Shown one piece after another: positions 6,679 to 46,239 of a DNA stretch of 47,163 bases. The DNA comes from Stappia sp. TSB10P1A (GTDB lineage Bacteria > Pseudomonadota > Alphaproteobacteria > Rhizobiales > Stappiaceae). The stretch's first letter is position 1. Each line of letters opens with the position of its first letter. Where the stretch lies: NCBI RefSeq assembly GCF_900185725.1, contig NZ_FYAU01000030.1:1-47163 (forward strand), in the 5' to 3' direction. The translations under genes and the position numbers were made by a program. A model generated the notes under the pieces. That model saw nothing but the letters and a program-made list of their open reading frames with translations, was not told the origin of the DNA and made no database searches.

Positions 6679-6745
6679 GCGAAACGGCATGCGCGCAAGG
6701 ATCAGGGCCGGGACAACAGCATCGCCCAGGACCCCGCCCTGCCCC

Positions 6746-10373: not shown

Positions 10374-10377
10374 ACCC

Positions 10378-11409
10378 ATGACCACGTCGACCTTCACCCG
10401 CCGCCGACTGCTGCAGACCTCCGGCGGTCTTCTTCTCGCCGCCGGCCTTCTCGGCCCCTCGGCCGTCCGCGCGCAAGGCGGACTGATCGCGCTCGTCCAC
10501 ACCCAGGCGGCCGGCGATGCCGGCCCGGTGGACTCGATGATCGGCAAGCTGAACCAGTTCGCCGCCGAAACCGGCATGCGGGCACGCGCCATCTACGCGC
10601 AGGACCCCGCGACCTACGAGACCAGCTTCACCACCCTGGGAGAGGCCGGCGCCTCGATCGTCGTCTCCACCTTCAACGAGGTGGCGGAGCCGATCCGGGA
10701 GGTCGCGCCGAACTTCCCCGACACCAAGTTCATCCAGCTCTTCGCCGACCCCTTCGAGCCGGCGATTCCCAACGTCACGACGGTCTCCTACGACTATTAT
10801 CTCGGCTGCTATCTTGCGGGCATCTTCGCCGCCCGCATGTCGCGCTCCGGCAAGCTCGGCTTCATCGGCGGCATCTCGATCCCGCCGATCAACGCCGACT
10901 TCAACGCCTTCAAGGCCGGCGCCCAGTCGGTCAATCCGGACATTACCGCGACGGTGGCCTTCGCGGGCAGTTTCCAGGATCCGGCCAAGGGCCAGGAGAT
11001 CGCCACCCAGATGTATTCGGACGGGATCGACTTCATCCAGACCGACGCCGCCGCGACCGATTTCGGCATCATCGCCGCCGCCCAGGAGCGCGAGGGGCGC
11101 CTGGTCTCCTGCCTCGACCCGGCGCAGTTCACCCTGGCCCCGAAGAGCCTCATCTCCATCGTCGGCCTGGACTTCGGCGCCTCGCTCTACAACGAAGCGC
11201 AGCGGGCGCTGACGCCCGACTGGCAGGCCGGCCATGTGCCGACCGGCCTTGGCACCGGCGTGATCGACTTCATCCGCAACCCGGAGTTCATCGCCCAGGG
11301 ACCGGCCGAGCTCAACGCCATGGCCGAAGCCGCGATGCCGGAGGTCGATCAGGCGCGCACCGCGATCCTCGACGGATCGCTGGTGGTCGAGTTCAACACG
11401 AACCTCTGA
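10378..11409 (+). CDS. BMP-family ABC transporter substrate-binding protein
   Basis: A 343-aa periplasmic binding protein of the Bmp (basic membrane protein/PnrA) family, whose members bind nucleosides. The N-terminus holds a Tat signal (TRRRLLQTSGG, hydrophobic stretch, then AVRAQG), so it is probably exported folded. The mature protein has two lobes with SYDYYLGCYLAGIFAARMS, a Bmp-type hinge motif, and a GKLGFIGGISIPP strand. It delivers its ligand to the ATPase and permeases encoded next. Purine or pyrimidine nucleosides are the likely ligands; the RutR-type control favours pyrimidines. Confidence 0.92.
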   Translation: MTTSTFTRRRLLQTSGGLLLAAGLLGPSAVRAQGGLIALVHTQAAGDAGPVDSMIGKLNQFAAETGMRARAIYAQDPATYETSFTTLGEAGASIVVSTFNEVAEPIREVAPNFPDTKFIQLFADPFEPAIPNVTTVSYDYYLGCYLAGIFAARMSRSGKLGFIGGISIPPINADFNAFKAGAQSVNPDITATVAFAGSFQDPAKGQEIATQMYSDGIDFIQTDAAATDFGIIAAAQEREGRLVSCLDPAQFTLAPKSLISIVGLDFGASLYNEAQRALTPDWQAGHVPTGLGTGVIDFIRNPEFIAQGPAELNAMAEAAMPEVDQARTAILDGSLVVEFNTNL

Positions 11410-11415
11410 CCGCAG

Positions 11416-13020
11416 ATGGCAGGACCCCAACCGGCGGGCGCTTCGGCGCCCGCCCTCGACGCCGGCAATGTCACGGTGCGCTACGGGAGCTTCACCGCTC
11501 TCGAAGGGGTTTCGGCCCGCTTCGAGCCGGGGCTCATTCACGCGATCGTCGGACAGAACGGCGCGGGCAAGACGACATTCGCGCGCGTCGCGGCGGGGCT
11601 GGTCGCCCCGGCGCAGGGCGACGTCCTGATCTTCGGCGAGAAGGTCCCGCCCGGCGATGTGCTTTCCGCGCGCGCCGCCGGTGTCGAACTGGTGCATCAG
11701 AGCTTTGCCCTGCCGCCCTCCTTCACGGTGGCGGAGGTGCTGCAATTCGTCAGTCCGCGGCGCGGGATCTTCTCGCGCAAGGCGATCGAGCGGCACTGGC
11801 AGTCCTGGCTGAACGACATCGGCATCGACCTGAAGGCGGATGCGCGCATCCAGGACCTTCCGGTCGAATCCCAGCAATCTGCCGAGATCGCCCGCGCGAT
11901 GGTCTCCGATGCGCGGCTGCTGATCCTTGATGAGCCCACCGCCGTGCTGGCGCCCGAGGGCATCGAGCGGCTGTTTGCCCGGGTGCGCGGGTTGAAGGCG
12001 CGCGGGGTGACGGTGTTCCTGGTGCTGCACAAGATCCGGGAAGTGCTGGCGGTTGCCGACACGGTGACGGTCCTGCGCGGCGGCCGTCTGGTCACCGGAC
12101 CGGTCGCAACAGTGGGCCTCGAACCCTCCGCCCTGTCGGGCCTGATCATCGGTGACAGCGCCGGCACGATCGATGCCGCCGACCGCGCCGCCCTCACCGG
12201 CGAGGGCGAAACCACCCACGCCTCCTCAACCCCGCCCGCAAGACGGCCGGGCTGGGCCGGGGCCCTGCGCATCCGCCGGGCCACGGTGCCGGGCGGGCCC
12301 TATGGCCATGGCCTCCACGGCGTCGACCTCGATGTCGACGAAGCCGAGATCGTCGGCATTGCCGGCGTCGAGGGCAATGGCCAGCGCGATCTGGTCGCCG
12401 CCATCGCCGGCCTCGCACCGCTGACCGCCGGCGAGATCGAGATCGGCGCGCAGCGCTTCGCGCGCCAGGGGCTCGCCGCGCGCCGCAAGGCCGGTCTGCG
12501 GATCATCCCGTTCGAGCGCAATGTCGAAGGTCTCAGCCTGACCAGCAGCCTGTGGGAGAACTGGTGCGCCGCGCGCCTCGTCGGCCGGTCGCTGTTTTCC
12601 CCGGCAGGTCCGCGCGCCCTGCGCCGCGATGCCGATGCCGCGTTCCAGGCCTGGGATGTCCGCTATCGCAGCCCGGACCAGCCCGCCGGCTCCCTGTCCG
12701 GCGGCAATGCGCAGAAGGTGATCCTCGCGCGCGAGATCGATGCCGAGGCCCGGCTCATCGTCGCCGCCCAGCCGACGCGCGGCCTCGACATCGGCGCGAC
12801 GGCGGCGGTGTGGAATGCCCTGCGCGGCGCGCGCGATCGCGGGGCGGGCGTTCTCATCATCTCCTCGGACCTCGATGAGCTCTTCGATATCTGCGACAAG
12901 GTCGTCGTCCTCGCCTCGGGCAGGAGCGTCGGCAGCTTTACGCCCCCTTACGACATCCGGGCGGTCGGCGACGCGATGATCGCGGCCGGCGGACACGGGC
13001 AGGAGGATCTGGCGCCATGA
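11416..13020 (+). CDS. ABC transporter ATPase with two nucleotide-binding domains (nucleoside type)
   Basis: A 534-aa cytoplasmic ATPase of the RbsA/NupO (YufO) type with two fused domains. Domain 1 has an intact Walker A (GQNGAGKT, 46-53) and Walker B (LLILDEPTA), with a degenerate signature (PVESQQSAEI). Domain 2 has a degenerate Walker A (GVEGNGQRD) and an intact signature (LSGGNAQK). This asymmetry is usual for sugar/nucleoside ATPases of this type. The linker around residues 240-275 is proline/alanine-rich. The stop overlaps the next gene by 4 bp. It energises uptake by the two permeases that follow. Confidence 0.93.
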   Translation: MAGPQPAGASAPALDAGNVTVRYGSFTALEGVSARFEPGLIHAIVGQNGAGKTTFARVAAGLVAPAQGDVLIFGEKVPPGDVLSARAAGVELVHQSFALPPSFTVAEVLQFVSPRRGIFSRKAIERHWQSWLNDIGIDLKADARIQDLPVESQQSAEIARAMVSDARLLILDEPTAVLAPEGIERLFARVRGLKARGVTVFLVLHKIREVLAVADTVTVLRGGRLVTGPVATVGLEPSALSGLIIGDSAGTIDAADRAALTGEGETTHASSTPPARRPGWAGALRIRRATVPGGPYGHGLHGVDLDVDEAEIVGIAGVEGNGQRDLVAAIAGLAPLTAGEIEIGAQRFARQGLAARRKAGLRIIPFERNVEGLSLTSSLWENWCAARLVGRSLFSPAGPRALRRDADAAFQAWDVRYRSPDQPAGSLSGGNAQKVILAREIDAEARLIVAAQPTRGLDIGATAAVWNALRGARDRGAGVLIISSDLDELFDICDKVVVLASGRSVGSFTPPYDIRAVGDAMIAAGGHGQEDLAP

Positions 13021-16507: not shown

Positions 16508-18028
<1,521 letters not shown>

Positions 18029-19226: not shown

Positions 19227-20066
19227 TCAGCCGCCGAAGCCGAAGCCGACGGGCATGTCGGTCAGGGTGATGCCGAAGGGCTCCAGACTCTTGACGATCC
19301 AGGTCTGGTTGTTGCCGATGCGGCGGTTGTACTCGGCCCAGGCCGAGACGAAGCTCTTGAACGTCTCGTCGGCGCTGTAGTTGAGGGCGATGACGGAGGG
19401 GGTCGACAGAACCGGCGTCGGCACCTTCACCGAGCCCATCGTCGGCGCCTTCTTGGAGATGACGAGGCCGTTCAGCATCGTGTTGACGAGGCCGTCCGCC
19501 TTGCCGGTGGTGACGGCGACGATGGCCTCGTCCCGGGTCTTGAAGCGCAGCACATTGGCCTTGGGCAGATACTGCTGGGTGATCAGGTCCTGCGCCGAGC
19601 CGAGATCGACGGCGAAGGTGTATTTCGGGTCGTTCAACTCGCCCCAGGTCTTGCCGGTCAGTTCGTCCTTGGCCGAGACGATGATGAAGCTGTTGTAATA
19701 GGTCGGGTCGGAGAACGACACCGACATGGCGCGCACCGGCGTCGCGGTCACCGCGAAGGCCATGTCGACCTTGCCGCTCTGCACGTCGAGAATGGCGTTG
19801 GACCAGCTCGACTCCACCACTTCCAGCTTCACGTCCAGCATCTTGGCGATGTCGCTCGCCATGTCGATGACGAAACCTTGCCATTCGCCGGTGCGCGGAT
19901 CCTTGTTGAAATACGGCACCTCGTTGAGGATGCCGGGAATGCGTAGCACGCCGCGGGCGCGGATCTCCTCGATGGTGCCGGCGCTCGCGGTGCTGACGGC
20001 GGCGCTCGCGGCGCCGATGGCCAGCGTCATGGCGACGACACTGCACAGCTTCTTCAGGAATGTCAT
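19227..20066 (-). CDS. Polar amino-acid ABC transporter substrate-binding protein (PAAT family)
   Basis: A 279-aa periplasmic protein of the SBP_bac_3 family. A Sec signal peptide runs from MTFLKKLC through a hydrophobic stretch to about ASA near residue 28. The mature N-terminus IEEIRARGVLRIP, then VIDMASDIAKMLDVKLEVV and VDMAFAVTATPVRAMSVSFSDPTY, is standard for this family. The start at 20066 has GGAGG about 10 nt upstream. It lacks its own permease and ATPase; those lie at 27.5-29.0 kb beyond a LysR gene, so the transporter is split. The ligand is probably an amino acid or diamino acid. Confidence 0.9.
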   Translation of the reverse strand: MTFLKKLCSVVAMTLAIGAASAAVSTASAGTIEEIRARGVLRIPGILNEVPYFNKDPRTGEWQGFVIDMASDIAKMLDVKLEVVESSWSNAILDVQSGKVDMAFAVTATPVRAMSVSFSDPTYYNSFIIVSAKDELTGKTWGELNDPKYTFAVDLGSAQDLITQQYLPKANVLRFKTRDEAIVAVTTGKADGLVNTMLNGLVISKKAPTMGSVKVPTPVLSTPSVIALNYSADETFKSFVSAWAEYNRRIGNNQTWIVKSLEPFGITLTDMPVGFGFGG

Positions 20067-20266
20067 GGGTAAAGGACCTCCGTTGTTCCCCGACGTATCG
20101 TTGGCCGGTGCCCGTCTGGTGGCGCGGCCCGGCAGCACTGTTGGCCGGGGTCAAGCCTAGCGGGCGCGGGGGTGGGAACAATGCTAGAGACGCCGCCGCC
20201 CTTACGCAGTTTTTTATATGTTGGAAGGACCAATGGCGCTCACGGCGCCGGATAATCCGAGGGCGC

Positions 20267-21196
20267 CTACAGCGCCGGATGGGCGAGATCGCCGCCGCGC
20301 GGCGGCTCCAGCACCGGGCCGACCAGCTCGGCCTGGCAGTCGGCGAACAGCCGCTGCACGCTCGGGTGCTTCTGCAGGAAGCCGGCGCTGCCGAAATAGA
20401 CCCGCACCTCGGGCAGGTTGGTCAGCCTGACGCTGGCGATCGCCGCTTCCTCGCCCTGCATGCACCAGGACGGGATGATGGAGAAGCCCAGCCCCTCCTC
20501 GACGCAGCGCTTCACCGAGGAACTGCCGGAGGTGGAGATCGCCGGCTGCACCTGCGCCCCGTCGCGGCCGAGGAAGTCGACGGCGAGGTTGCGCAGTGTC
20601 TGGCCGGGCTCGTAGGTGATGAAGGCGCGCCCGCGCGCCCAGGCCGGCACCTCGGCCGGGGCCGGCGCCGCGCCCCAGGCGCGCGGATAGACGAGACTCA
20701 GCCGGTAGCTGCCGAGCAGGCGCTGCGGCACCACCGGATCGCCGAAATAGCGCTCGGAGATGCACACGTCGAGACTGCCGTTCTTGACCAGTTCGGCCAG
20801 CACTGTGTCGCGCTCGTAGACGGCGAATTCCATCTCCGGGAATTCCTCGCGAAACCGCGTCAGCACCTTGGGGAACAGATAGAAGAAGATCGCCTGCGGC
20901 ATGCCGACGCGCAGCGCCGAGCGCTGGTTCTCGATCAGCTTGGTCAGCCGTTCCAGCATGATGTCGAGTTCGGGATGCAGCAGGTTGTAGAGCGCCCGGC
21001 CGCGCGGCGTCAGCGCGATCCGCTTGGCGCCCTGCTCGGTCTCGATCAGCCGGCCGTTGAGGATCTGCTCCAGCCGGCGCACATGGTTGGCCGCCGACTG
21101 GTAGCTGAGATTCAGTTCCCGCGCCGCGCCGGAAAACGATCCGTGCCGGGCGACCTGGTAGAAGGTCTGGATGAGCGTCAGGCTGATCTTGGCCAT
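20267..21196 (-). CDS. LysR-family transcriptional regulator
   Basis: A 309-aa LysR-type regulator. The N-terminal winged HTH (LIQTFYQVARHGSFSGAARELNLSYQSAANHVRRLE) is complete. The effector domain follows with the expected lobes (LRVGMPQAIFFYLFP; TYEPGQTLRNLAVDFLG; GFSIIPSWCM). The start at 21196 gives the standard LysR N-terminus and has GGGAGA upstream. It is divergent from the flavoprotein gene at 21320 and precedes the binding-protein gene on the same strand, so it probably controls the whole amino-acid catabolic cluster. The shared promoter contains an 8-bp inverted repeat. Confidence 0.93.
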   Translation of the reverse strand: MAKISLTLIQTFYQVARHGSFSGAARELNLSYQSAANHVRRLEQILNGRLIETEQGAKRIALTPRGRALYNLLHPELDIMLERLTKLIENQRSALRVGMPQAIFFYLFPKVLTRFREEFPEMEFAVYERDTVLAELVKNGSLDVCISERYFGDPVVPQRLLGSYRLSLVYPRAWGAAPAPAEVPAWARGRAFITYEPGQTLRNLAVDFLGRDGAQVQPAISTSGSSSVKRCVEEGLGFSIIPSWCMQGEEAAIASVRLTNLPEVRVYFGSAGFLQKHPSVQRLFADCQAELVGPVLEPPRGGDLAHPAL

Positions 21197-21242
21197 GCGT
21201 GTCTCCCTGCCGCACCGCCATAGGGGCTGCCTCCCCCTTAGC

Positions 21243-21285
21243 CGATACAAAATTCCGCAGCAAGCTCGCCCGTCATCTTGTATCG
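21243..21285. promoter_or_regulatory. Candidate LysR operator in the divergent promoter
   Basis: CGATACAA (21243-21250) and TTGTATCG (21278-21285) form perfect 8-bp arms 27 bp apart between the LysR gene and its divergent neighbour. ATAC-N(n)-GTAT arms are of the type bound by LysR proteins. The assignment is by position only. Confidence 0.5.
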
Positions 21286-21319
21286 ACGCTTCCCCGCCGG
21301 CCCCGCCACACTTGCCCCC

Positions 21320-22585
21320 ATGTTCAACCCCTGGGGTCAGCCCGTGGCAACTGCGCATCCGCAACCCGCTTCCGTTGTCGTCGCCGGTGCCGGCATCATT
21401 GGCAGCGCCGCCGCCTATTTCCTGGCGCGGCGCGGGCTCAATGTCACGGTGCTCGACGCGCTCGCCCCGGCCGCCGAGGCCTCCGGCGCCGCCGACGGCG
21501 CCGTCTCCGTCGCCAGCAAGCGTCCGGGCCCCTTGATGCAGGCCGCGCTCCAGGGCATCGCCCTCTATCGCCGGCTGGCGGGGCTCGACCCGGACCCCGG
21601 AACCGGCCTTCAGGGCGACGACGCACCGCTTGCCGGCCTGTTCCATCCCCGCTCCACCTTCATCGTCGCCGCGAGCCCGACCGAACGCGCGGTGCTGGAA
21701 GCCCATGCCGCCGCCCTCGCCCAGGCCGGCGTCGCGGTCGCGGCCATCGAGCCGCCGGCGATCCAGGCGCGCTTTCCCGCCCTGTCGGCGGCCGCCTGCC
21801 TCGTCATCGAGGTGCGCGGCGACGGCCATGCCATCGGCTATCAGGTGGTGCGGCAACTGCTTGCCGCCGCCCGCGTGCCGGTGCTGCGCGGCTGCCCGGT
21901 GACCCGGCTCGACATCGACGCGGCCGGCGGGCGCATTCGCGCCGTCGAGACGCCGCGCGGCCGGATCGCCGCCGATGCCTTCGTCTTCGCCACCGGCAAC
22001 GGCACCGCGCCCCTGTTCGGCCTGCAAGCCGTGCTCACCCCGCGCAAGGGCCAGTTGCTGATCACCGAGCGCGACCTGGCGCTGAGCCGCGCCATGCCCG
22101 GCTCGATCATGTCCGGGCGCTATCTCCTGTCCAAGGGCAGCCAGACCCGCGCGCTGGACGCCGGCGGCGAGCAGGCCTCCGCCTCCGCCGCGCGCGGCTT
22201 CGGCCTCGTCGTCGACCCGCTGCGCACCGGCCAGTTCCTCATCGGCGGCACCCGCGAGGACCATGGCGACAAGCGCGAGACCGATCTTGCCGCCGTCTCC
22301 CGCATCCTCTCCGACGCGGTCGCGCTGGTGCCCGGCCTTGCCGGCGTGCGCCTGCTGCGCGGCTTTGCCGGCGCCCGCACCGCCGTGCGCGACGGGCTGC
22401 CGCTGGTCGGCCCCCTGCCCGGCCTTGCCAACGGGTTTCTCGCCACCGGTTTCGAGGGTGACGGCATCTGCCTCGGTCCGGTCACCGGCGCCGCCCTTGC
22501 CGATCTCGTCTGCGGCACGGCGCCGGCGCTGGACCTTGCCCCCTTCGCGCCCTCCCGCTTCGCCGAATTGCAGGCCGCCGCATGA
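21320..22585 (+). CDS. D-amino-acid dehydrogenase-like flavoprotein (DAO family, HcnC-like beta subunit)
   Basis: A 421-aa FAD-dependent oxidoreductase of the DAO family. The dinucleotide motif VVAGAGIIGSAAAYFLARRG is near 20-39, and the C-terminal GFEGDGICLGPVTGAALADLV is the second FAD-contact region. DAO proteins followed by a small [2Fe-2S] protein and an FAD/NAD protein form heteromeric dehydrogenases for D-amino acids, hydroxyproline, opines or glycine (HcnABC). The ATG at 21320 is used; a TTG at 21278 and a GTG at 21343 are alternatives, and the Shine-Dalgarno is poor for all. The stop overlaps the next gene by 4 bp. Confidence 0.85.
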   Translation: MFNPWGQPVATAHPQPASVVVAGAGIIGSAAAYFLARRGLNVTVLDALAPAAEASGAADGAVSVASKRPGPLMQAALQGIALYRRLAGLDPDPGTGLQGDDAPLAGLFHPRSTFIVAASPTERAVLEAHAAALAQAGVAVAAIEPPAIQARFPALSAAACLVIEVRGDGHAIGYQVVRQLLAAARVPVLRGCPVTRLDIDAAGGRIRAVETPRGRIAADAFVFATGNGTAPLFGLQAVLTPRKGQLLITERDLALSRAMPGSIMSGRYLLSKGSQTRALDAGGEQASASAARGFGLVVDPLRTGQFLIGGTREDHGDKRETDLAAVSRILSDAVALVPGLAGVRLLRGFAGARTAVRDGLPLVGPLPGLANGFLATGFEGDGICLGPVTGAALADLVCGTAPALDLAPFAPSRFAELQAAA

Positions 22586-22869
22586 CCCGTCCCACCTTCT
22601 TCTGGATGTCGCGGCCGATCCCGTTTTCGGACGGCGAGAGCATCGCCGCCGCCCTCACCGCCGCCGGCATCGTCTCGCTGGGGCGCGATCCCGTCGGCCA
22701 GTCGGCCCGCTACTTCTGCGGCATCGGCGCCTGCCAGGCCTGCACCGTGCGGGTCGCCGGCGTGCCGCGCGAGGCCTGCCTGACCAGGGCCGAGGCGGGC
22801 GCCCGCGTCGAGCCCCTCCACCCCGCACCCCTCCACCTCGTACAGGGAGAGCCCGGCGATGCGGCCTGA
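22582..22869 (+). CDS. [2Fe-2S] small subunit of the dehydrogenase (HcnA-like)
   Basis: A 95-aa plant-type ferredoxin domain of the Fer2_4 class, the electron-transfer subunit between the two flavoproteins. Cluster cysteines are at residues 46, 51, 54 and 66 (FCGIGACQAC, then EACLT), the C-x4-C-x2-C-x11-C arrangement of the family. The start overlaps the previous stop (ATGA), and its own 3' end overlaps the next gene by 11 bp. This tight coupling indicates a stoichiometric complex. Confidence 0.92.
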   Translation: MTRPTFFWMSRPIPFSDGESIAAALTAAGIVSLGRDPVGQSARYFCGIGACQACTVRVAGVPREACLTRAEAGARVEPLHPAPLHLVQGEPGDAA

Positions 22870-24262
22870 CGCCCCCCGCAAGATCGAACGGGCGATGGAT
22901 GTGCTGGTCGTCGGCGGCGGCCCGGCCGGCATGGCCTGCGCCAGCGCCTGCGCCCGTCAGGGCCTGTCCGTCACGCTGGTCGACCAGCGCGCCAGCCTCG
23001 GCGGCGCCATCTTCCGCCAGCCGGTCGGCGGCGCCGCGCCGGTGCCGCAACCGGCCTCCTCCCGGCAGCGCTGGCGCCGGCTCCTCGCCGATCTCACCTC
23101 CGCACCCGGCCTCGACCTGCGCCTTGAAACCCTGTTTCTCGGGCTCGAGGCCGACGGCCTGGCGCTGATCGAGGATCGCAATGCCGGCCGCGTCCTGTCG
23201 CTGCGCCCGCGCGCGCTCGTGCTTGCCACCGGCGCCGTCGAGCGCATCCTGCCGCGTCCCGGCTGGACCCTGCCGGGCGTCGTCACCGCCGGCGGGCTGC
23301 AGGTGTTGATGAAGGAGACCGGCCGCCCTCCCGCCGGCCGGGTGGTGCTGGCCGGCTCCGGCCCGCTGCTGCTCGCCGTCGCCGCCCAGATGACCGGCCT
23401 CGGCCATCCGCCGCTCGCCATTCTCGAGGCGGGCGACCCGCTGCGGCGCTGGTCGGCAGGTCTTGCCCTCATCGCCCATCCGGCCCTGCTGCGCGAGGCG
23501 GCGGGCTATCTCGCGACCCTTGCCCGCGCCCGCGTGCCCTGGCATCGCGGCGCCGTGCTGCGGCGGATCGCAGCCGAGAGCGAGGGCGAGGGCGAGACCC
23601 TTGTCGCCACCTGGACCGACCGGCGCGGCGCCAGCCACAGCCTTGCCGCCGATCGCATCGCCCTGCATGACGGGCTTGCCGAAAACGCCTTCGGCCTGCC
23701 CGAGGATGCGGCGGCGTCGCCGCGCCGCCCGCTGGTCCTGCGCATCGGCGACTGCCGCGCCGCGCTCGGCGCCCCGGCCGCCATCGCCGACGGCACTGCC
23801 GCCGGAGAGCGGATCGCGGCCCGCCTCGCCTCCCCGACCGGGCGGCAGGCCACCGATGCCGAAACCGAGCCCGCCGCCCTTGCCCGCCACCGCGCCGCCC
23901 AGGGCCATATCGCCCGCGCCTTCGCGCCGCTGGCGCCGGTGTCCCCCGCCGACCTTGCCGACGACACGGTGCTGTGCCGCTGCGAGGGCCGCACCGTCGG
24001 CGACCTCAAGCGCCTGCTTGCCGAGGATGAAGGTCTGTCCCCGCGCGAGCTGAAGCTGAGCGGCCGCTTCGCCATGGGCGCCTGCCAGGGCCGGTTCTGC
24101 GCCGCCAACACCGCCGCCCTGACCAGCAGCCTGACCGGTGCGACCACTCCCTTCGCCCCCGGCGCGTTCACCGGCCAGCGCTGGCCGATCCGCCCCGTTC
24201 CCATCGCCGCGCTCGCCGCCCCGGCGCCCGCCCCCTCCCTGCCTGACGAGAGCCAGACATGA
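22859..24262 (+). CDS. FAD/NAD(P)-binding alpha subunit of the dehydrogenase with a C-terminal BFD-type [2Fe-2S] domain (HcnB-like)
   Basis: A 467-aa flavoprotein. VLVVGGGPAGMACASACAR at 16-34 binds FAD. A second Rossmann region (RVVLAGSGPLLLAVAAQM) is central. The C-terminal domain has cysteines at 373 and 375 (LCRCEG) and at 409 and 414 (GACQGRFC), the CxC...Cx4C ligands of BFD-like [2Fe-2S] domains. This is the alpha subunit of heteromeric amino-acid/opine dehydrogenases (OoxA, HcnB, D-hydroxyproline dehydrogenase). It passes electrons on, probably to the quinone pool. The stop overlaps the aldehyde dehydrogenase start by 4 bp. Confidence 0.9.
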   Translation: MRPDAPRKIERAMDVLVVGGGPAGMACASACARQGLSVTLVDQRASLGGAIFRQPVGGAAPVPQPASSRQRWRRLLADLTSAPGLDLRLETLFLGLEADGLALIEDRNAGRVLSLRPRALVLATGAVERILPRPGWTLPGVVTAGGLQVLMKETGRPPAGRVVLAGSGPLLLAVAAQMTGLGHPPLAILEAGDPLRRWSAGLALIAHPALLREAAGYLATLARARVPWHRGAVLRRIAAESEGEGETLVATWTDRRGASHSLAADRIALHDGLAENAFGLPEDAAASPRRPLVLRIGDCRAALGAPAAIADGTAAGERIAARLASPTGRQATDAETEPAALARHRAAQGHIARAFAPLAPVSPADLADDTVLCRCEGRTVGDLKRLLAEDEGLSPRELKLSGRFAMGACQGRFCAANTAALTSSLTGATTPFAPGAFTGQRWPIRPVPIAALAAPAPAPSLPDESQT

Positions 24263-25656
24263 CCAAGCTGTCCACCGCCGCCCTGCACACCGAGCCCGAC
24301 TTCGCCGTCCGTAACCCGTTCGACGGGACCGAGGTCGCCCGCCTGCCGGCGAGTTCCCCGGCCGATATCCTCGCCGCGCTCACCCGCGCCCGCCGCGCCC
24401 AGGCTCAGTTCCGCCATTCGACCCCGGCGGAGCGCCGTGCCCTGCTGAACGCGCTCGCCGCCGAGATCGCCGCCGATGCGGAACCCCTTGCCGCCACCAT
24501 CTGCGCGGAAATGGGCAAGACCATCCGCGAGGCGCGCAACGAGGTCCGCCGCGCCCAGAACACGCTGAAACTGTCCGGCGATGCCGCCACCTTCCTCGAC
24601 GGCGAGGCGCTGCACTGCGCCATTGTCGAGGGCGGCGCCGACCGGCTCGCCACCATCACCTATCAGCCGGTCGGCGTCGTCGGCGCGATCACCCCGTTCA
24701 ACTATCCGGTCAATCTCCTGTGCCACAAGCTCGGGCCCGCCATCGCCGCCGGCAATGCGGTGGTCGCCAAGCCCTCGCCCAAGGCGCCGCTCGCCGCCGC
24801 CCGCCTTGCCGAGCTCGCCGTGCGCGCCGGCTGGCCGCGCGATCTGTTCCAGGTGGTGCATGGCGGTGCCGAGGCGGCGCTGGCGCTGGCCCGCGCGCCC
24901 ATCGACCTGCTCTCCTTCACCGGCGGTCCCGCAGCCGGCCTTGCCCTGAAGACCGCCAGCGGCCTCGTCCGCTGCCTGATGGAACTCGGCGGCAACGATC
25001 CGCTCTTCGTCCTGCCGGATGCCGATCTCGACCGCGCCGTCGCCACCGCCATCGGCCATCGTTTCGAGATCGCCGGCCAGAGCTGCGCGGCGGTGAAGAA
25101 GCTCTATCTCCACTCCGCCATCGCCGAGACCTTCATCGATCGGCTGGTCGCCGCCGTCGCCGGGGTCCGTGCCGGCGATCCGGCGGACGAGGCCACCGAC
25201 ATGGGGCCGGTGATCGACGAGGCCGCCGCGCGGCTGGTCGAGGAGCGCGTCGGCGCCACCCTCGCCTCGGGCGCGCGTCTCCTCGCCGGGGGCGGCCGCA
25301 AGGGCACGCTGGTCGCCCCGACGGTGCTGCGCGACGTCGCCGCCGACGCGCCGATCATCGCCGAGGAAACCTTCGGCCCGGTCATCGCCATCCGCACCTT
25401 CTCGGACGCCCGCACCGCCATCGCCGAGGTCAATGCCGGCGCCTACGGCCTGCAGGCCGGCGTCTTCACCAACGACCATGCCATGGTCAAGCTGTTCTCG
25501 CGCGAGCTGATCGTCGGCGGCGTGATGATCAACGAGGGCCCGGATTTCCGCGCCGAACACGTCCCCTTCGGTGGCGTCAAGCGCAGCGGCCTCGGCCGCG
25601 AGGGCGTGCGCATCGCCCTGCGCGAGATGAGCGAGCCGAAGGTGGTGATCGACTGA
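24259..25656 (+). CDS. Aldehyde dehydrogenase, GapN/lactaldehyde-dehydrogenase-like
   Basis: A 465-aa NAD(P)-dependent aldehyde dehydrogenase. ITPFNYPVNLLCHKLGPAIA is the oxyanion-hole segment, LMELGGNDPLFV carries the catalytic glutamate, and Cys276 lies in GQSCAAVKK, close to the GQRCTAVKR of GapN-type enzymes. The group oxidises small polar aldehydes such as lactaldehyde, sulfoacetaldehyde or phosphonoformaldehyde. Here it sits between an amino-acid dehydrogenase and DapB/DapA-like genes, so a semialdehyde from amino-acid cleavage (for instance aspartate semialdehyde) is a reasonable substrate. This is inference. Confidence 0.88.
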   Translation: MTKLSTAALHTEPDFAVRNPFDGTEVARLPASSPADILAALTRARRAQAQFRHSTPAERRALLNALAAEIAADAEPLAATICAEMGKTIREARNEVRRAQNTLKLSGDAATFLDGEALHCAIVEGGADRLATITYQPVGVVGAITPFNYPVNLLCHKLGPAIAAGNAVVAKPSPKAPLAAARLAELAVRAGWPRDLFQVVHGGAEAALALARAPIDLLSFTGGPAAGLALKTASGLVRCLMELGGNDPLFVLPDADLDRAVATAIGHRFEIAGQSCAAVKKLYLHSAIAETFIDRLVAAVAGVRAGDPADEATDMGPVIDEAAARLVEERVGATLASGARLLAGGGRKGTLVAPTVLRDVAADAPIIAEETFGPVIAIRTFSDARTAIAEVNAGAYGLQAGVFTNDHAMVKLFSRELIVGGVMINEGPDFRAEHVPFGGVKRSGLGREGVRIALREMSEPKVVID

Positions 25657-25667
25657 GGGAACCCGCC

Positions 25668-26411
25668 ATGCGCATCGCCGTCATGGGCGCGTCGGGCCGC
25701 GTCGGGACCCGCCTCGTCGAACTCGTCCTCGCCAGTCCCGGGCTGGAGCTGGCCGCCGCGCTGGTCTCGCCCCGCTCGGCCCTGGTCGGCACGCCGGTCG
25801 CCGGCGGCAGCATCGAGTACCGCCCCTCGGACGCGGCCATGAACAGCCATTGCGACGTGATCGTCGACTTCTCCTCGCCCGCCGCCTCGCTCGCCCTGCA
25901 GGGCGAGGTCGGCGAGAAGCCGATCCCGATGGTCATCGGCACCACCGGCTTTTCCGCCGAAGAAGACGCCGCGCTCACCGCCTTCGCCGCCCATCGGCCG
26001 ATGGTGGTCAGCGCCAATTTCGCCCTCGGCTTCGAGGCCTTCCGCCAGATCGCCGGCCGCTTCGCCCGGTTGATGCCCGGCGGTGAGGCCGGCGTCGGCG
26101 AGGTCTATCACGCCCGCAAGAAGGCCGAGCCCTCCGGCACCTCGCGCTGGCTCGCCGCCACGGTGCGCGAGGCCCGCTCCGCCGCCATGGGCTTCGACGC
26201 GCCGGAGCCGGACATCCGCGTCACCCGCGAGGGCGACACGGTCGGCGTCAACGAGCTCCGGTTCGACCTTGGCTCCGCCGAACTGCTGCTCAGCTACCGC
26301 GTCCACACCCTCGCCGCCTATGCCGAAGGGGCGCTCGCCGCCGCCCAGTGGCTCGCCGCCCGCCGTCCCGCCAACGGGCGCTATGCGCTCGCCGACACCA
26401 ATTCAAACTGA
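25668..26411 (+). CDS. DapB-like reductase with a substituted catalytic histidine
   Basis: A 247-aa protein of the dihydrodipicolinate reductase family. The N-terminal MRIAVMGASGRVG binds NAD(P)H, and VIGTTGF is the family motif. In the active-site block the E. coli pattern HHRHKVDAPSGT is replaced by Y147-H148-A-R-K151-K-A-E-P-S-G-T: the lysine and the second histidine are kept, but the first (catalytic) histidine is tyrosine. It is probably not the housekeeping DapB. It may reduce or oxidise a related cyclic imine. The start has GAGGGA about 7 nt upstream, and it is followed 21 bp later by a DapA-like gene. The motif comparison is by eye. Confidence 0.82.
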   Translation: MRIAVMGASGRVGTRLVELVLASPGLELAAALVSPRSALVGTPVAGGSIEYRPSDAAMNSHCDVIVDFSSPAASLALQGEVGEKPIPMVIGTTGFSAEEDAALTAFAAHRPMVVSANFALGFEAFRQIAGRFARLMPGGEAGVGEVYHARKKAEPSGTSRWLAATVREARSAAMGFDAPEPDIRVTREGDTVGVNELRFDLGSAELLLSYRVHTLAAYAEGALAAAQWLAARRPANGRYALADTNSN

Positions 26412-26432
26412 CTTCTGCAAGGAGGATCTTCC

Positions 26433-27350
26433 ATGACCGACATGGCCAGCCGTTTCCGCGGCGTCTTCACCGCCCTCGTCACCCCGTTCCGCGACGGCGA
26501 GGTCGACCATGCCGCCTTCGCCGCGCTGGTGGAGCGCCAGCTCGCGGCGGGCGTCGCCGGCCTCGTGCCGGTCGGCACCACCGGCGAGGCGGCGACCCTG
26601 TCCGAGGCGGAGGCCGAGGACCTGATCGCCCGCACCGTCGCGCTGACCGCCGGCCGCGCCATGGTGCTGGCCGGCGCCGGAGCCAACGACACCCGCAAGA
26701 CCGTGGAGAAGGTGACGCGCGCCGAGGCCGCCGGGGCGGACGCGGTGCTCGTCGTCACGCCCTATTACAACAAGCCGACCCAGGCCGGCCTGCTCGCCCA
26801 TTACGGCGCCGTCGCCGAGGCGACCAGCCTGCCGATCGTGCTCTATTCGGTGCCCGGCCGCTGCGGCGTCGAGATCGCGCCGGAAACCTGCGCCCGGCTG
26901 GTCGAGCGCCACGCCAACATCGTCGCCATCAAGGAGGCCGGCGGCTCCTCCGCCCGCGTCACCCGGCTGCGCCAGGCCTGCGGCGACCGGCTGATCATCC
27001 ATTCCGGCGACGATGCCCTGACCCTGCCGTTCCTGTCGCTCGGCGCCGTCGGCGTCACGTCCGTCGTTTCCAATGTCGCCCCGCGCGAGATGGTGGAGAT
27101 GGTCAAGGCCTGGGAGGCGGGAGACACCGCCCGCGCGCTCGCCCTGCACGAGCTGGTCGCCGAGCTCGCCGACGGCCTCTTCATCGAGTCCAACCCCGGC
27201 CCGGTCAAGGCGGCGCTCGCCCTTGCCAATCTCGCCGGTCCGGAGCTGCGCCTGCCGATGGTGCCGGTGACGGATGCCAGCCGCGAGACCATCGCGGCGA
27301 TCCTCGGCCGCTTCGCCGATGCCGCCGCCAGCTTCCAAGAAATGCGCTAA
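26433..27350 (+). CDS. DapA-family aldolase/lyase
   Basis: A 305-aa TIM-barrel of the DHDPS/NAL family, which uses a Schiff-base lysine. GTTGE near residues 49-53, the tyrosine pair 111-112 in TPYYNKP, K167 in VAIKEAGG, and the carboxylate-binding arginine in SVPGRCG are all present, so the catalytic apparatus of dihydrodipicolinate synthase is intact. Families with this fold include DapA, hydroxyproline-pathway deaminases and sugar-acid aldolases. AAGGAGG lies 7 nt before the ATG. In this catabolic cluster it may run in the cleavage direction, giving pyruvate plus a semialdehyde (inference). Confidence 0.88.
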   Translation: MTDMASRFRGVFTALVTPFRDGEVDHAAFAALVERQLAAGVAGLVPVGTTGEAATLSEAEAEDLIARTVALTAGRAMVLAGAGANDTRKTVEKVTRAEAAGADAVLVVTPYYNKPTQAGLLAHYGAVAEATSLPIVLYSVPGRCGVEIAPETCARLVERHANIVAIKEAGGSSARVTRLRQACGDRLIIHSGDDALTLPFLSLGAVGVTSVVSNVAPREMVEMVKAWEAGDTARALALHELVAELADGLFIESNPGPVKAALALANLAGPELRLPMVPVTDASRETIAAILGRFADAAASFQEMR

Positions 27351-27477
27351 GCCGGCGCCCTTGCTTTGCATTGCGGCGCCCGCGCGCCGCATAGGACACT
27401 GCCTCAAGCCATGGACAGGAGCGGCCGCGATGCGGCGTGATCGTCCACACGAACAAGAAACCAGAGGACCCGAGACA

Positions 27478-27531
27478 ATGACAGCGACGCGACAGGCCCC
27501 GCGCCGTCCCGGCAGGGAGGCGCAGCCGTGA
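27478..27531 (+). CDS. Possible 17-codon leader peptide before the permease gene
   Basis: An ATG at 27478 opens a frame for a 17-residue, arginine- and proline-rich peptide whose TGA overlaps the GTG start of the permease (GTGA at 27528-27531). GAGG lies about 10 nt upstream. It could couple translation to the permease. It may also be chance in GC-rich DNA. Confidence 0.25.
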   Translation: MTATRQAPRRPGREAQP

Positions 27532-28193
27532 CCTATACCTGGGATTTCCACTCGGTCTGGCAGTACCGCGACCTCTTCATGTGGGGCCTGTGGATCAGTG
27601 TGGTCTACACGGTCGGCTCGATTGTCTTCGGCGTGCTGATCGGCTTCCTCACCTGCTCGATGCGCCTGTCGGGCTGGCGCATGCTCAGCTTCATCGCCCG
27701 CGTCTATCAGGAGATCTTCCGCACCACGCCGCTGCTGGTGCAGCTCCTGTGGTTCTACTACGCCTTCCCGCTGCTGGTCGGTGGCAACATCGACAACCGC
27801 GTCGCGGCGATGCTGACCCTGTCGCTCTATGTCGGCGCCTTCTACGCCGAGATCTTCCGGGGCGGCATCGTCTCCATCGACAAGGGCCAGCGCGAGGCGG
27901 CCGCCGCCATCGGCATGAGCCCCTGGCAGGCGATGCATCGCATCATCCTGCCGCAGGCGTTCAAGCGCATGCTGCCGTCCTTCATCAACCAGTCGGTGAT
28001 CCAGTTCAAGAACACCTCGCTGGTCTCGGTCATCTCCGTCGCCGACCTCGCCTATATGGCGGCCGTCGTCAACGGCCAGACCTACCGCCCGCTGGAATCC
28101 TACACCGTCATGGCCGTGCTCTACATCGCCATGCTCCTGCCCATGACGCAGATCGCCGACTGGGTGGAAAAGCGCCTGCGCGTCAGCGACTGA
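27528..28193 (+). CDS. Polar amino-acid ABC transporter permease
   Basis: A 221-aa inner-membrane permease of the His/Glu/Gln/Arg (HisMQ/GlnP) type with about five membrane segments. The EAA loop ([29 protein letters not shown]) near residues 122-150 is complete, and [22 protein letters not shown] is the family-specific segment. The start is GTG at 27528 with GGGAGG 7 nt upstream. Only one permease gene is present, so the channel is probably a homodimer. It pairs with the next ATPase and with the binding protein at 19.2-20.1 kb. Confidence 0.92.
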
Positions 28194-28203
28194 GGAGATC
28201 CAG

Positions 28204-28983
28204 ATGACCGCCACATCCCTGTCCGCCGCGCCCGCCCCCGTCATCGAGGCCATCGGCCTGCGCAAGACCTTCGGCCATCACGAGGTGCTGAAAGGTCTCG
28301 ACCTCGGCCTTGCGCGCGGCGAGGTCGTCGCCCTGATCGGCCCGTCGGGCTCGGGCAAGTCCACCTTCATCCGCTGCCTCAACCGGATGGAGGCCCCGAC
28401 CGGCGGCGAGATCCGCTTCCGCCAGAAGCGGGTGCGCGACGGCTTCCGCGATCGCGGCGAGGACCTCGGCATCGGCACGCTGCGCCGCCATGTCGGCATG
28501 GTGTTCCAGCACTTCAACCTCTTTCCGCACAAGACCGTGCTGCAGAACGTCACCGAGGGTCCGGTGATCGTCTGCAAGCGGCCGCGCCGCGAGGCGGAAG
28601 AGGAGGCGATGGCGCTGCTCGAACAGGTCGGGCTCGCCGAGAAGCACTCGGCCTATCCCAATCACCTGTCCGGCGGCCAGAAGCAGCGCGTCGCCATCGC
28701 CCGCGCCCTCGCCATGCGCCCGGAAGTCCTGCTGCTCGACGAGGTGACCAGCGCCCTCGACCCGGAACTGGTCGGCGAGGTGCTCGCCGTCATCCGCGCC
28801 CTTGCCGAGGCCGGCATGACCATGGCCATCGTCACCCACGAGATGGCCTTCGCCGCCGAGGTGGCAAGCCGCGTCCTGTTCCTCGATCAGGGCGTCATCG
28901 CCGCCGAGGGCAGCCCGGCCGAGGTCATCCTCGAACCGACGAACCCGCGCCTGCAGGCCTTCGTCGCCAGGTTCAAGGGCTAG
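28204..28983 (+). CDS. Polar amino-acid ABC transporter ATPase (GlnQ-like)
   Basis: A 259-aa cytoplasmic ATPase. Walker A is GPSGSGKST near residues 47-55, the Q-loop [10 protein letters not shown] is at about 102-111, the signature LSGGQKQR near 158-165, and Walker [15 protein letters not shown] near 178-191, followed by the H-loop (IVTHEM). The Walker B glutamate is kept. It energises uptake with the preceding permease. The saccharopine-dehydrogenase-like gene starts 3 bp after its stop, so all three genes belong to one operon. Confidence 0.94.
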
Positions 28984-28986
28984 CAA

Positions 28987-30063
28987 ATGTCGCAGGTCAA
29001 GCTCACCCTGTTCGGCGCCGGCCATGTCGGCACGGCGCTTGCCACCGTCCTTGCCGGCCATGGCCGCTTCGCCGTGCAGGTGGTCGACGGGTCCGACGAC
29101 GCGCTCGACCGGCTGCAGGGCCTCGGCCTGCCGCTGACCCTGCGCCATCTCGCCCCCGGCGAGGAGGCGCACCGCCTGATCGAGGGGCAGGACATCGTCG
29201 TCGCGGCGGTGCCGGACCAGGCCGTCGCCCGCGTCGCCGAGGCGGCCCTGCTGGTGAAGGCGCATTATCTCGACTTCATCCCGACGCCCCGGGCCGCGCG
29301 CCACAGCCTCGACGCCCTTGCCGGCCACCGCGCGGTGCTTACCGGCTGCGGCGTGTCGCCGGGGCTGATCGGCGTGCTCGCCTGCGGCCTGCTCAAGGAC
29401 TTCGCGCCGGTCTCCGATCTCGTCATCCGGGTCGGTGCCATCCCGCGCCATCCCACCAACCGGCTCGGCTACGGCCAGATCTGGAATGTCGACGGGTTGA
29501 TCGAGGAATACACCCGCCCGAGCGCCGCCATCCGCGACGGCGCCGCGGTCGAACTGACGCCGCTGGAGGAGTATGAGCGCCTCACCTTCGACGGCATCGG
29601 CTACGAGGCGTTCGTCACCGCCGGCGGGCTTGCCGATCTCGACGCGCTCGCCGGCTTCACCCCGCGCAACGTCACGGTGAAGACCCTGCGCTATCCGGGC
29701 CATCTCGATTACATGCGCTTCCTGCTTGACGATCTCGGCCTGCGCCATCGCCGCGACCTGCTGCGCACGCTGCTGTCCAACGGCCTGCCGCTGATCGAGG
29801 ACGACGTGCTGCATGTGGTCCTCACCGCGCGCGGCCAGCGTGGCCGCCAGCAGGCAGAGCGCACGCTGCGCTACCGCTTCGCGCCCAATGCCGCCTACGG
29901 GCCGTTCAACGCGCTGACCTCGGTCGCCACCGGCTATGCCGCCAGCCTGCTGACGCTGCTCGCCGACGGCGCCCTGCCGGACCGTGGCCGGATCGCGCCG
30001 CACCATCTCGATGCCGCCCGCCTGCTCGACAGCCCCTTCATCGCGCCGCTGCGGCGGGATTAG
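28987..30063 (+). CDS. Saccharopine-dehydrogenase-like NAD(P)-binding oxidoreductase
   Basis: A 358-aa protein of the saccharopine dehydrogenase/Lys9 superfamily, which also contains bacterial lysine 6-dehydrogenases and opine-type reductases. GAGHVG at about residues 10-15 is the Rossmann motif. The middle (GQIWNVDGLIEEYTRPSAAIRDG; ELTPLEEYE; GYEAFVTAGGLADL) matches the substrate domain of the lysine-dehydrogenase group. It is the last gene of the catabolic cluster. It could form or remove the terminal amino or imino group of a lysine-like compound. Its 3' end overlaps the convergent gene at 30060 by 4 bp. Confidence 0.82.
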   Translation: MSQVKLTLFGAGHVGTALATVLAGHGRFAVQVVDGSDDALDRLQGLGLPLTLRHLAPGEEAHRLIEGQDIVVAAVPDQAVARVAEAALLVKAHYLDFIPTPRAARHSLDALAGHRAVLTGCGVSPGLIGVLACGLLKDFAPVSDLVIRVGAIPRHPTNRLGYGQIWNVDGLIEEYTRPSAAIRDGAAVELTPLEEYERLTFDGIGYEAFVTAGGLADLDALAGFTPRNVTVKTLRYPGHLDYMRFLLDDLGLRHRRDLLRTLLSNGLPLIEDDVLHVVLTARGQRGRQQAERTLRYRFAPNAAYGPFNALTSVATGYAASLLTLLADGALPDRGRIAPHHLDAARLLDSPFIAPLRRD

Positions 30064-30345: not shown

Positions 30346-30756
30346 TCACTCCATGCGCGCCAGCACCTCTTCCAGCGCATCGAGGAAATGCGGCCAGCCG
30401 GCCTTGGCGCCGCCATAGTAGCGCGGCTGGTCGCGGCGGAAGCCGGTCTGCTCCATCCGCAGCCGCGTTCCCCCGCGCGTCGGGGTCAGCGTCCAGGTGA
30501 CGATGCTCTTGAGATCATGGTCGCCCCAGCTATAGGCGAGCAGGAGCGGCGGCTCGATGTCCAGCACCTCGCAATCGACCGAGCCCCAGTCGGCGCGAAA
30601 GCCGAAGCGATGGCCGATGGCCGGGCGGAAGTCGCCCTTCATCAGCCACTCCTCGATCAGATGCGGCTCGGTCAAGGCCCGCCAGATCCGCTCCGGCGGG
30701 TGGGCGATATCGCGTTCGACGACGACCGACAGCGTGTCTTCATGGGTATCCGTCAC
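30346..30756 (-). CDS. SRPBCC/AHSA1-domain protein
   Basis: A 136-aa START/Bet v 1-like (AHSA1) domain protein. VERDIAHPPERIWRALTEPHLIEEWL near residues 13-38 and the closing helix GWPHFLDALEEVLARM are family hallmarks. The start is GTG at 30756, and the stop of the ArsR gene overlaps it (GTGA). ArsR-SRPBCC pairs are widespread in proteobacteria; the ligand and role of the SRPBCC member are usually unknown, though stress and metabolite binding are proposed. Confidence 0.9.
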   Translation of the reverse strand: MTDTHEDTLSVVVERDIAHPPERIWRALTEPHLIEEWLMKGDFRPAIGHRFGFRADWGSVDCEVLDIEPPLLLAYSWGDHDLKSIVTWTLTPTRGGTRLRMEQTGFRRDQPRYYGGAKAGWPHFLDALEEVLARME

Positions 30757-31145
30757 TGATCCATCCTTCCAAGCAGGTCTTCAAGGGCGTCGAAGCGGGC
30801 TTCCCAGAAGCCGGTCATCCGCCGCGTCCAGTCGGCCAGCGGAGCGAGGGCCGAGACATCGGCGCTGTAGTGGGTCTGCCGCCCCGCCTGCCGGTCGCGC
30901 ACCAGCCCGGCCTGTTTCAGCACCGCAAGATGCTTGGAAACCGCCGGCTGCGACACGCCGGCCTGCGCCGTCAGCGCGCCGACGCTCTGCTCGCCGTCGC
31001 GGCACAGCCGTTCGAAGATCGCCCGCCGCGTCGGATCGGCGAGCGAGCGAAAGAGGGCGTCTTGGCCAATGTCTTGGCCAGTGTCTGGGCCAATGTCTGG
31101 GCCAGTGACTTGTGCAGTGTCTTCGGCGTGCGGCATGAAACCCAT
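30753..31145 (-). CDS. ArsR-family transcriptional regulator with a repeat-encoded N-terminal tail
   Basis: A 130-aa winged-helix repressor. ALFRSLADPTRRAIFERL and the recognition region VSQPAVSKHLAVLKQAGLV are the ArsR core. No metal-binding cysteines are seen, so it is of the metal-independent type found next to SRPBCC genes. The first 25 residues are a low-complexity string (DTGQ/DIGP-type repeats) encoded by five 12-bp tandem units. The start could be ATG at 31145 or 31136; neither has a clear Shine-Dalgarno. An inverted repeat of the ArsR operator type lies 26 bp upstream. Confidence 0.9.
   Translation of the reverse strand: MGFMPHAEDTAQVTGPDIGPDTGQDIGQDALFRSLADPTRRAIFERLCRDGEQSVGALTAQAGVSQPAVSKHLAVLKQAGLVRDRQAGRQTHYSADVSALAPLADWTRRMTGFWEARFDALEDLLGRMDQ
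31061..31120. repeat. Five 12-bp tandem units in the ArsR coding sequence
   Basis: Units of the form CTTGGCCAATGT begin at 31061, 31073, 31085, 31097 and 31109, with 1-3 differences per unit. They stay in frame and encode a four-residue peptide repeat in the N-terminal tail of the ArsR protein. Confidence 0.85.
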
Positions 31146-45238: not shown

Positions 45239-45251
45239 CAGTTCACGTTCA

Positions 45252-46234: not shown

Positions 46235-46239
46235 CTCAA

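Follow-up and report, generated by a model that had tools for sequence, protein, structure and literature searches.

The window analysed here is a 47,163-nucleotide stretch of the genome of Stappia sp. TSB10P1A, and its positions 19227-30063 hold a gene cluster that encodes a PAAT-type transporter, a LysR-family regulator, a three-subunit flavin/[2Fe-2S] dehydrogenase, an aldehyde dehydrogenase, a DapB-like protein, a DapA-like protein and a relative of L-lysine 6-dehydrogenase (LysDH). We conclude that this cluster is a rare, transferable and coherent unit, because ten of its genes co-occur in relatives, matches within its genus and order are sparse, and copies lie on plasmids. We tentatively propose that it is a catabolic module for the uptake of a C7 diamino or imino dicarboxylate and its cleavage to pyruvate and aspartate, with diaminopimelate (DAP) as the most likely substrate. 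A more specific version, which we regard as possible and rather doubtful, is that DAP is consumed by the upper lysine pathway running backwards: the LysDH relative would form tetrahydrodipicolinate (THDP), the flavoprotein would replace DapB, a feedback-free DapA would cut the ring, and the DapB-like protein would no longer be a reductase. The analysis shows the gene identities, the residue states, the conservation and the separate housekeeping copies; from these we infer the substrate of this putative DAP module, the order and direction of its steps, its electron acceptor and its loss of lysine feedback and of DapB activity.

Conservation and distribution of the module

When the DapB-like protein was used to scan bacterial and archaeal genomes, 19 relative loci emerged, and 27 were compared once a Martelella plasmid, a Chelatococcus plasmid and stretches of other genomes had been added and two duplicates dropped. 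Contig ends cut two of these loci (L012 and L037), and the remaining 25 are complete. The ten core genes, which encode the binding protein, LysR, the three dehydrogenase subunits, the aldehyde dehydrogenase, the DapA-like protein, the permease, the ATPase and the LysDH-like protein, are all present in each of the 25 complete loci, which indicates that their co-occurrence exceeds chance. The solute-binding protein is 65-91% identical in 25 of the 27 loci, and the LysR protein is 82% identical to its Martelella counterpart. Family profiles recovered in the window every gene type that the first-pass annotation of this DNA had named there, namely the transporter, LysR, the three-subunit dehydrogenase, the aldehyde dehydrogenase and the DapB-like, DapA-like and saccharopine-dehydrogenase-like proteins.

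The flanks are far more variable than the block. When open reading frames (ORFs) of at least 90 aa from 28 relative loci and the window were clustered, with the two duplicates in and L012 out, the only widespread family outside the block (17 loci) was one that joins ABC ATPases. Besides this ABC-ATPase-type family, every flanking ORF family was confined to at most 5 of the 27 distinct loci, the window being counted among them. Several flanking families were limited to a Ciceribacter-like group (L002, L004, L005 and L019). The L002 cluster lies in a metagenome-assembled genome labelled Arenimonas (Lysobacteraceae), its DapB-like and LysDH-like proteins group with Ciceribacter, and its presence there possibly reflects a binning error rather than long-range transfer. 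In L008, an extra ORF (5576-6796, minus strand), possibly an insertion sequence, lies between the DAO and [2Fe-2S] genes.

The best match of the DapB-like protein among named genomes was in Pannonibacter carbonis (84% identity). A search with a DapA alignment found a match to the DapA-like protein in none of four sampled genomes of the same genus and in 8 of 397 genomes of the order, own genome counted. At E 1e-105, matches were found in 2 of 385 genomes of the class and 12 of 398 of the phylum, the own genome being one in each; the other 11 phylum matches (355-371 bits) were read by score and not by locus and may be ordinary dapA genes. In several relatives, plasmids carry the module or at least its genes for the DapB-like and LysDH-like proteins, and the carriers are scattered soil and water bacteria. 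Absence from the four sampled same-genus genomes together with the plasmid location fits an acquired trait.

The enzymes and a proposed route

The DapA-like protein lies above the TIGR00674 equivalog cut-off (Table 1). In a table of 30 cluster rows (window included, two duplicates among them), T44, T45, Y107, Y133 and K161, which we take to be the catalytic positions of DHDPS in E. coli numbering, were kept in every row, as was R138. PMC3188589, a paper on human 4-hydroxy-2-oxoglutarate aldolase (HOGA), a DHDPS relative that works in the retro-aldol direction, describes Arg138 as important for binding aspartate semialdehyde in E. coli DHDPS and as Asn in the human enzyme. Apart from the dapA product at C49, the genome encodes four other DHDPS-family proteins, and all four lack Arg138. 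We conclude that the DapA-like protein is, by its sequence, a DHDPS whose residues should let it handle pyruvate and aspartate semialdehyde, which agrees with the chemistry that the first-pass annotation had assigned to it. Among the residues that presumably form the lysine-feedback site, S48, H53, H56 and E84 were kept in 0 of 30 rows, and N80 and Y106 in all 30. The protein thus appears to have lost lysine feedback, and a feedback-free DHDPS would fit degradation.

The DapB-like protein has the DapB fold and, judged by its sequence, is not a DapB. Its AlphaFold model (pLDDT 88.8) shows this fold, and all 50 among the Foldseek matches listed for it are DapB/4-hydroxy-tetrahydrodipicolinate (HTPA) reductases. 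Its TIGR00036 score of 113.8 bits falls below the dapB equivalog cut-off of 122. As described in PMC11489326, DapB carries the substrate motif E(L/A)HHxxKxDAPSGTA, in which His159 is the proposed general acid, His160 contacts the C2 carboxylate and Lys163 contacts the ring imine nitrogen, and mutating His159 and Lys163 dramatically lowers activity. We compared 25 cluster rows with 6 housekeeping DapB rows and found Tyr at position 159 in 24 of the former and His in all 6 of the latter. The cluster rows keep Lys163 (24 of 25), His160 (22 of 25), Ser168-Gly169 (25 of 25) and the nucleotide-binding glycines. Because Lys163, the Ser-Gly-Thr run and mostly His160 are kept, the protein probably still binds a cyclic imine dicarboxylate without performing ordinary DapB chemistry. 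In L015 (Aminobacter carboxidus, 10001-10759), position 159 is His and most of the remaining substrate motif is disrupted, a pattern like that of a gene in decay or still diverging. Trees of both the DapA-like and DapB-like proteins had been suggested in the first-pass annotation; for the DapB-like part, a single 99/99 branch splits the 25 cluster rows from the 6 housekeeping rows, of which the Nonomuraea row is a long branch.

Of the 25 complete loci, 21 carry the DapB-like gene and four, L028 (Chelatococcus), L049, L050 and L051, lack it. The share of 21 is inflated, as this very protein served as the query through which 19 of the 27 loci came to light. In the less biased search of the order with the DapA alignment, the gene was found in the own genome (G000), G116, G027 and G165 and was missing from G1017, G1030 and G1065, with G296 cut just before its expected place. 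Since four complete loci lack it, we conclude that the DapB-like protein is an optional component of the module. Two of these loci, L049 (G1030) and L050 (G1017), come from genomes that each hold one DapB outside the block. Additional DapB genes in G027 (C4) and G296 (C447) were considered as cluster variants and rejected as 29-32% matches, and the stretches around them hold no other module enzyme and only ATPase matches of 27-38%.

No epimerase had been seen in the first reading of this DNA, which holds for the window. An Asp/Glu-racemase-like gene ends one of the block operons in L028 (11095-11805) and L051 (about 11143-11823); the two proteins are 60% identical, and the L028 protein passes the Pfam cut-off for Asp_Glu_race while that of L051 has no family match at 1e-5. 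A second Asp/Glu-racemase gene lies in L028 at 111-785, on the opposite side of the block. Neither a DapB-like nor a racemase-like gene was found near the block in L049 and L050; in L049 the DapA gene is followed by genes for a GNAT acetyltransferase, a GntR regulator and an M20 peptidase, with a similar arrangement in L050.

The first-pass annotation had proposed that THDP arises through oxidation of meso-DAP at its D-centre by the flavoprotein, that the DapB-like protein then runs in reverse with NAD(P)+, and that DapA retro-aldol cleavage and the aldehyde dehydrogenase follow. This route takes most family names in their usual sense, it can point to the nucleotide-binding glycines of the DapB-like protein and to the (search-raised) presence of its gene in most complete loci, and we nevertheless judge it quite improbable. 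The replacement of His159 by Tyr, the sub-threshold score and the four complete clusters that lack the gene, two of them in genomes whose one DapB lies elsewhere, argue against reversed DapB chemistry as the key step. Reversal with NAD(P)+ would also be expected to be strongly unfavourable on redox grounds, and the route leaves the LysDH-like gene without a step. What stands of that interpretation is a distinct, catabolic-type module with a DapA node.

The closest solved structure to the LysDH-like protein, both by sequence and by Foldseek (TM 0.78-0.85), is an L-lysine 6-dehydrogenase (3abi), and the protein is a better candidate for the first oxidation. A tree with midpoint root, in which no characterised LysDH was included, parts 27 cluster rows from 14 LysDH-like rows by one 100/100 branch, and the second family member of the genome (C49:338656-339708) groups with the wider LysDH-like set. 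Positions 73, 97 and 120 are A, F and G in 24, 25 and 24 of the 27 cluster rows and S, L and Q in 13, 14 and 14 of the 14 LysDH-like rows. Most invariant residues are common to both sets, among them W166, E174, Y175, E207, R235 and H239. DAP differs from lysine by a carboxylate at C6, so an altered pocket would make a LysDH relative a natural DAP dehydrogenase. In a separate observation, a gene of the LysDH-like family in Rhizobium phaseoli (L032:8153-10113) adjoins a gene annotated as ectoine synthase.

Based on these assignments, the proposed route for DAP would comprise six steps. The PAAT transporter would import DAP (step 1), and the LysDH-like protein would oxidise its distal amine carbon to give L-2-amino-6-oxopimelate, which cyclises to THDP (step 2). 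The three-subunit dehydrogenase would then act on the enamine form of THDP, oxidising it to dihydrodipicolinate (DHDP) and passing electrons to the respiratory chain (step 3), and addition of water to DHDP would give HTPA (step 4), where the DapB-like protein, as an accessory, may aid hydration or tautomerisation. The DapA-like enzyme, free of lysine feedback, would split HTPA by retro-aldol cleavage into pyruvate and aspartate semialdehyde (step 5), and the aldehyde dehydrogenase would irreversibly convert the semialdehyde to aspartate (step 6). With the DapB-like protein set aside, the four enzymes (LysDH-like, flavoprotein, DapA-like and aldehyde dehydrogenase) match the four catalysed steps. 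In oxidising THDP, the enzyme would reverse an NAD(P)H-dependent reduction of a conjugated C=C bond, which should be far uphill for NAD(P)+ and possible, on redox grounds, for a flavoprotein that feeds a quinone. A three-subunit dehydrogenase with an iron-sulphur subunit would be the right kind of enzyme for this step. The alpha (Pyr_redox), beta (DAO) and gamma (Fer2_4) subunit genes occur together in the window and in every complete relative locus. The DapA-like protein, the DapB-like fold with its Lys163 and the LysDH-like protein appear as three independent pointers, which point at the lysine/DAP/THDP/HTPA skeleton.

Several observations weigh against this proposal. We know of no enzyme for the oxidation of THDP to DHDP by a DAO-type flavoprotein, and that step is a proposal. 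The closest solved structures of the binding protein are AncCDT-1 and cyclohexadienyl dehydratases, followed by amino-acid binding proteins, and do not name DAP; likewise, the top NCBIfam models of the aldehyde dehydrogenase are sulfoacetaldehyde, lactaldehyde and phosphonoacetaldehyde dehydrogenases, all under cut-off, and do not name aspartate semialdehyde. The DapB-like protein is kept and conserved where it is present, which would be odd if it were unimportant, and the search bias makes its retention rate hard to judge. Neither this proposal nor a reversed DapB explains G1065 (L051), a genome listed as 99% complete in which no DapB_N match was found at E 0.001. The feedback site is also lacking in some ordinary DHDPS enzymes, so that its presence is not universal. 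Finally, no recurring peptidoglycan-recycling gene was noticed in the flanks, most of whose families are without identification.

Other substrates and other copies

The most serious rival, which we consider unlikely, is that the imported compound is already 4-hydroxylated, for example 4-hydroxy-DAP, 4-hydroxypiperidine-2,6-dicarboxylate or a compound of the 4-hydroxypipecolate/4-hydroxylysine type. The flavoprotein or the LysDH-like protein would make the imine, DapA retro-aldol cleavage would yield pyruvate and an aldehyde, and the aldehyde dehydrogenase would finish the route, which is the logic of hydroxyproline breakdown made one carbon larger. This scheme requires no unknown desaturation, and its enzyme superfamilies are those that PMC4113996 gives for hydroxyproline catabolism (DAAO, DHDPS and aldehyde dehydrogenase). 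However, it leaves either the LysDH-like protein or the flavoprotein without a clear role. Because Arg138 is kept in all 30 rows, a carboxylated aldehyde is favoured, which disfavours 4-hydroxypipecolate and 4-hydroxylysine, and the carboxylated candidates are of doubtful natural abundance.

It is improbable that the substrate is instead a 3-amino-3-carboxypropyl compound or 2,4-diaminobutyrate. Here the flavoprotein would split a secondary amine in the manner of opine breakdown, the LysDH-like protein would convert the terminal amine to aspartate semialdehyde, the aldehyde dehydrogenase would form aspartate, and DapA with the DapB-like protein would drain the semialdehyde together with pyruvate. 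The subunit pattern of the flavoprotein, which we take to be that of opine and imino-acid dehydrogenases, is consistent with this scheme, although a DapA that condenses its substrates would be out of place in a catabolic operon. The saccharopine superfamily does contain carboxyspermidine dehydrogenase, which couples aspartate semialdehyde to amines and for which PMC10413350 describes a His228-Glu229-Glu230 triad as central. Yet a run search, as distinct from a residue-by-residue alignment to that enzyme, found the His-Glu-Glu run in 0 of 29 cluster LysDH-like rows.

We searched the genome from which the window derives (5.13 Mb, 99.66% complete; the window is its contig 43) and found a full-scoring DHDPS gene (C49), a DapB gene (C35) and dapF (C41) elsewhere, so the separate housekeeping dapA and dapB genes for which the first-pass annotation had advised a search are both there. 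A hydroxyproline-type locus at C28:399393-402610 has Pro_racemase, DAO and DHDPS-family genes side by side, holds the only Pro_racemase match of the genome, and encodes a DHDPS-family protein without Arg138. Because of these separate dapA, dapB and dapF genes and this separate locus, the cluster is unlikely to serve lysine biosynthesis or hydroxyproline catabolism. That the cluster comprises lysine-biosynthetic dapA/dapB copies or a simple back-up is very improbable: the DapA-like protein does exceed the dapA equivalog cut-off, but the DapB-like protein fails both motif and cut-off, and the operon includes an importer and dehydrogenases. The module is built like a catabolic one and is distinct from the biosynthetic copies, as the first reading had held, and genes annotated elsewhere as lysine biosynthesis are probably something else here. 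We give equally little credence to a hydroxyproline catabolic operon, which that reading had likewise set aside. The cluster does bring together DAO, DHDPS-superfamily and aldehyde dehydrogenase genes, the superfamilies that make up hydroxyproline catabolism according to PMC4113996, but the genome has its own trio at C28, the window cluster has no proline racemase, and the DapB-like and LysDH-like genes would be unexplained. Another DAO/DHDPS pairing in the genome lies at C46:87612-92143 (L026:6613-11144, minus strand), where a gene for a fused Fer2_4-Pyr_redox-DAO protein of 969 residues adjoins a PAAT permease gene and a gene for a DHDPS-family protein without Arg138; the C46 DHDPS-family protein scores 190.9 bits with TIGR00674, under the cut-off of 206.15.

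Layout and comparison with known systems

The features of the cluster are collected in Table 1. The first-pass annotation had described the genes as tightly overlapping, which is accurate between the DAO gene and the beginning of the DapB-like gene, where neighbours overlap by 4 to 11 bases if the latter starts at TTG 25653 rather than ATG 25668, and does not extend to the DapA-like and permease genes, which are separated by a 177-base gap. The start of the DAO subunit is likewise uncertain, with a candidate ATG near 21320. Relatives of this subunit in the PDB are glycine oxidase and dimethylglycine dehydrogenase, and the alpha subunit has stretches that resemble soxA and the GlpA C-terminus. 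A frameshifted LysR gene (ORF 20214-21263) was rejected, as that longer ORF is an out-of-frame shadow of the intact gene on the complement.

Table 1. Genes of the cluster, with positions in the window
Feature	Position	Strand	Family evidence
Periplasmic solute-binding protein, PAAT family (SBP_bac_3)	19227..20138	-	Pfam 68.5 bits
LysR-family regulator, divergent to the enzyme operon	20267..21196	-	LysR_substrate + HTH_1
DAO-type FAD subunit (beta) of the three-subunit dehydrogenase	21278..22585	+	PF01266 157 bits
[2Fe-2S] subunit (Fer2_4)	22582..22869	+	PF13510 45.3 bits
FAD/NAD-type subunit (alpha) of the dehydrogenase	22859..24262	+	Pyr_redox_2 47 bits
Aldehyde dehydrogenase	24259..25656	+	PF00171 457 bits
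DapB-like protein (DapB_N/DapB_C)	25653..26411	+	DapB_N 90.6 bits, DapB_C 46.2 bits
DapA-like protein (DHDPS)	26433..27350	+	TIGR00674 317.7 bits, cut-off 206.15
PAAT-type permease (BPD_transp_1)	27528..28193	+	PF00528; EhuC/GlnP-like, under those cut-offs
PAAT-type ATPase (ABC_tran)	28204..28983	+	PF00005 126.8 bits
L-lysine-6-dehydrogenase-like protein, saccharopine dehydrogenase superfamily	28987..30063	+	Sacchrp_dh_C + Sacchrp_dh_NADP

Other features lie nearby in the window. A second aldehyde dehydrogenase gene (16508-18028, minus strand, 534 bits), about 1.2 kb from the cluster, encodes a protein with 29-33% identity to the cluster aldehyde dehydrogenases of relatives and gives no sign of belonging to the module. 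Directly downstream of the cluster is a pair of genes for an ArsR-type regulator and an AHSA1-domain protein (30346-31145, minus strand). The alphaproteobacterial ar14 small RNA family is represented twice, at 45240-45368 and 46238-46360 (plus strand, 65.1 and 70.3 bits), with about 1 kb between the copies.

We found no paper on diaminopimelate catabolism in the open-access literature, a scope that leaves subscription journals mostly outside, and no described counterpart of the cluster there, as judged by titles, abstract openings and passages. To our knowledge, no pathway has been described for direct breakdown of the DAP carbon skeleton. DAP is a bacterial cell-wall building block that is released wherever bacterial cell walls rot. 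If the proposal is true, the cluster could serve to mark the turnover of cell-wall amino acids in soil and wastewater, and it would show, in nature, a biosynthetic aldolase put to degradative use. Even with another substrate, the analysis defines a conserved module of ten genes whose node at pyruvate and aspartate semialdehyde is testable.

Like DHDPR (DapB), the DapB-like protein has the fold, the nucleotide-binding glycines and, in nearly all rows, Lys163 and the Ser-Gly-Thr loop, but it differs from DHDPR in the change of His159 to Tyr, a shorter substrate-domain loop, its separate branch and its score under the curated cut-off. The DapA-like protein shares catalytic residues and the TIGR00674 score with DHDPS, whereas it lacks four of the six lysine-feedback residues and has neighbours that look catabolic. 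The LysDH-like protein shares fold, closest PDB entry and invariant residues with L-lysine 6-dehydrogenase (3abi), and the cluster proteins are set apart from LysDH-like proteins by their own branch and by positions 73, 97 and 120. The three-subunit dehydrogenase has the same alpha, beta and gamma set as the FAD/[2Fe-2S] enzymes that we take to be named D-hydroxyproline, opine and proline dehydrogenases, although its companion genes differ. Clusters for trans-4-hydroxy-L-proline (epimerase, DAO superfamily, DHDPS-superfamily deaminase and KGSA dehydrogenase) have a common flavoprotein/DHDPS/aldehyde dehydrogenase/transporter layout with the window cluster, which in contrast lacks a proline racemase or epimerase, carries the full DHDPS residues including Arg138, and has extra LysDH-like and DapB-like genes. 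Taken together, the architecture is a variant of the known DAO/DHDPS-superfamily/aldehyde dehydrogenase cluster for amino-acid degradation, and as a pathway for DAP it would be new.

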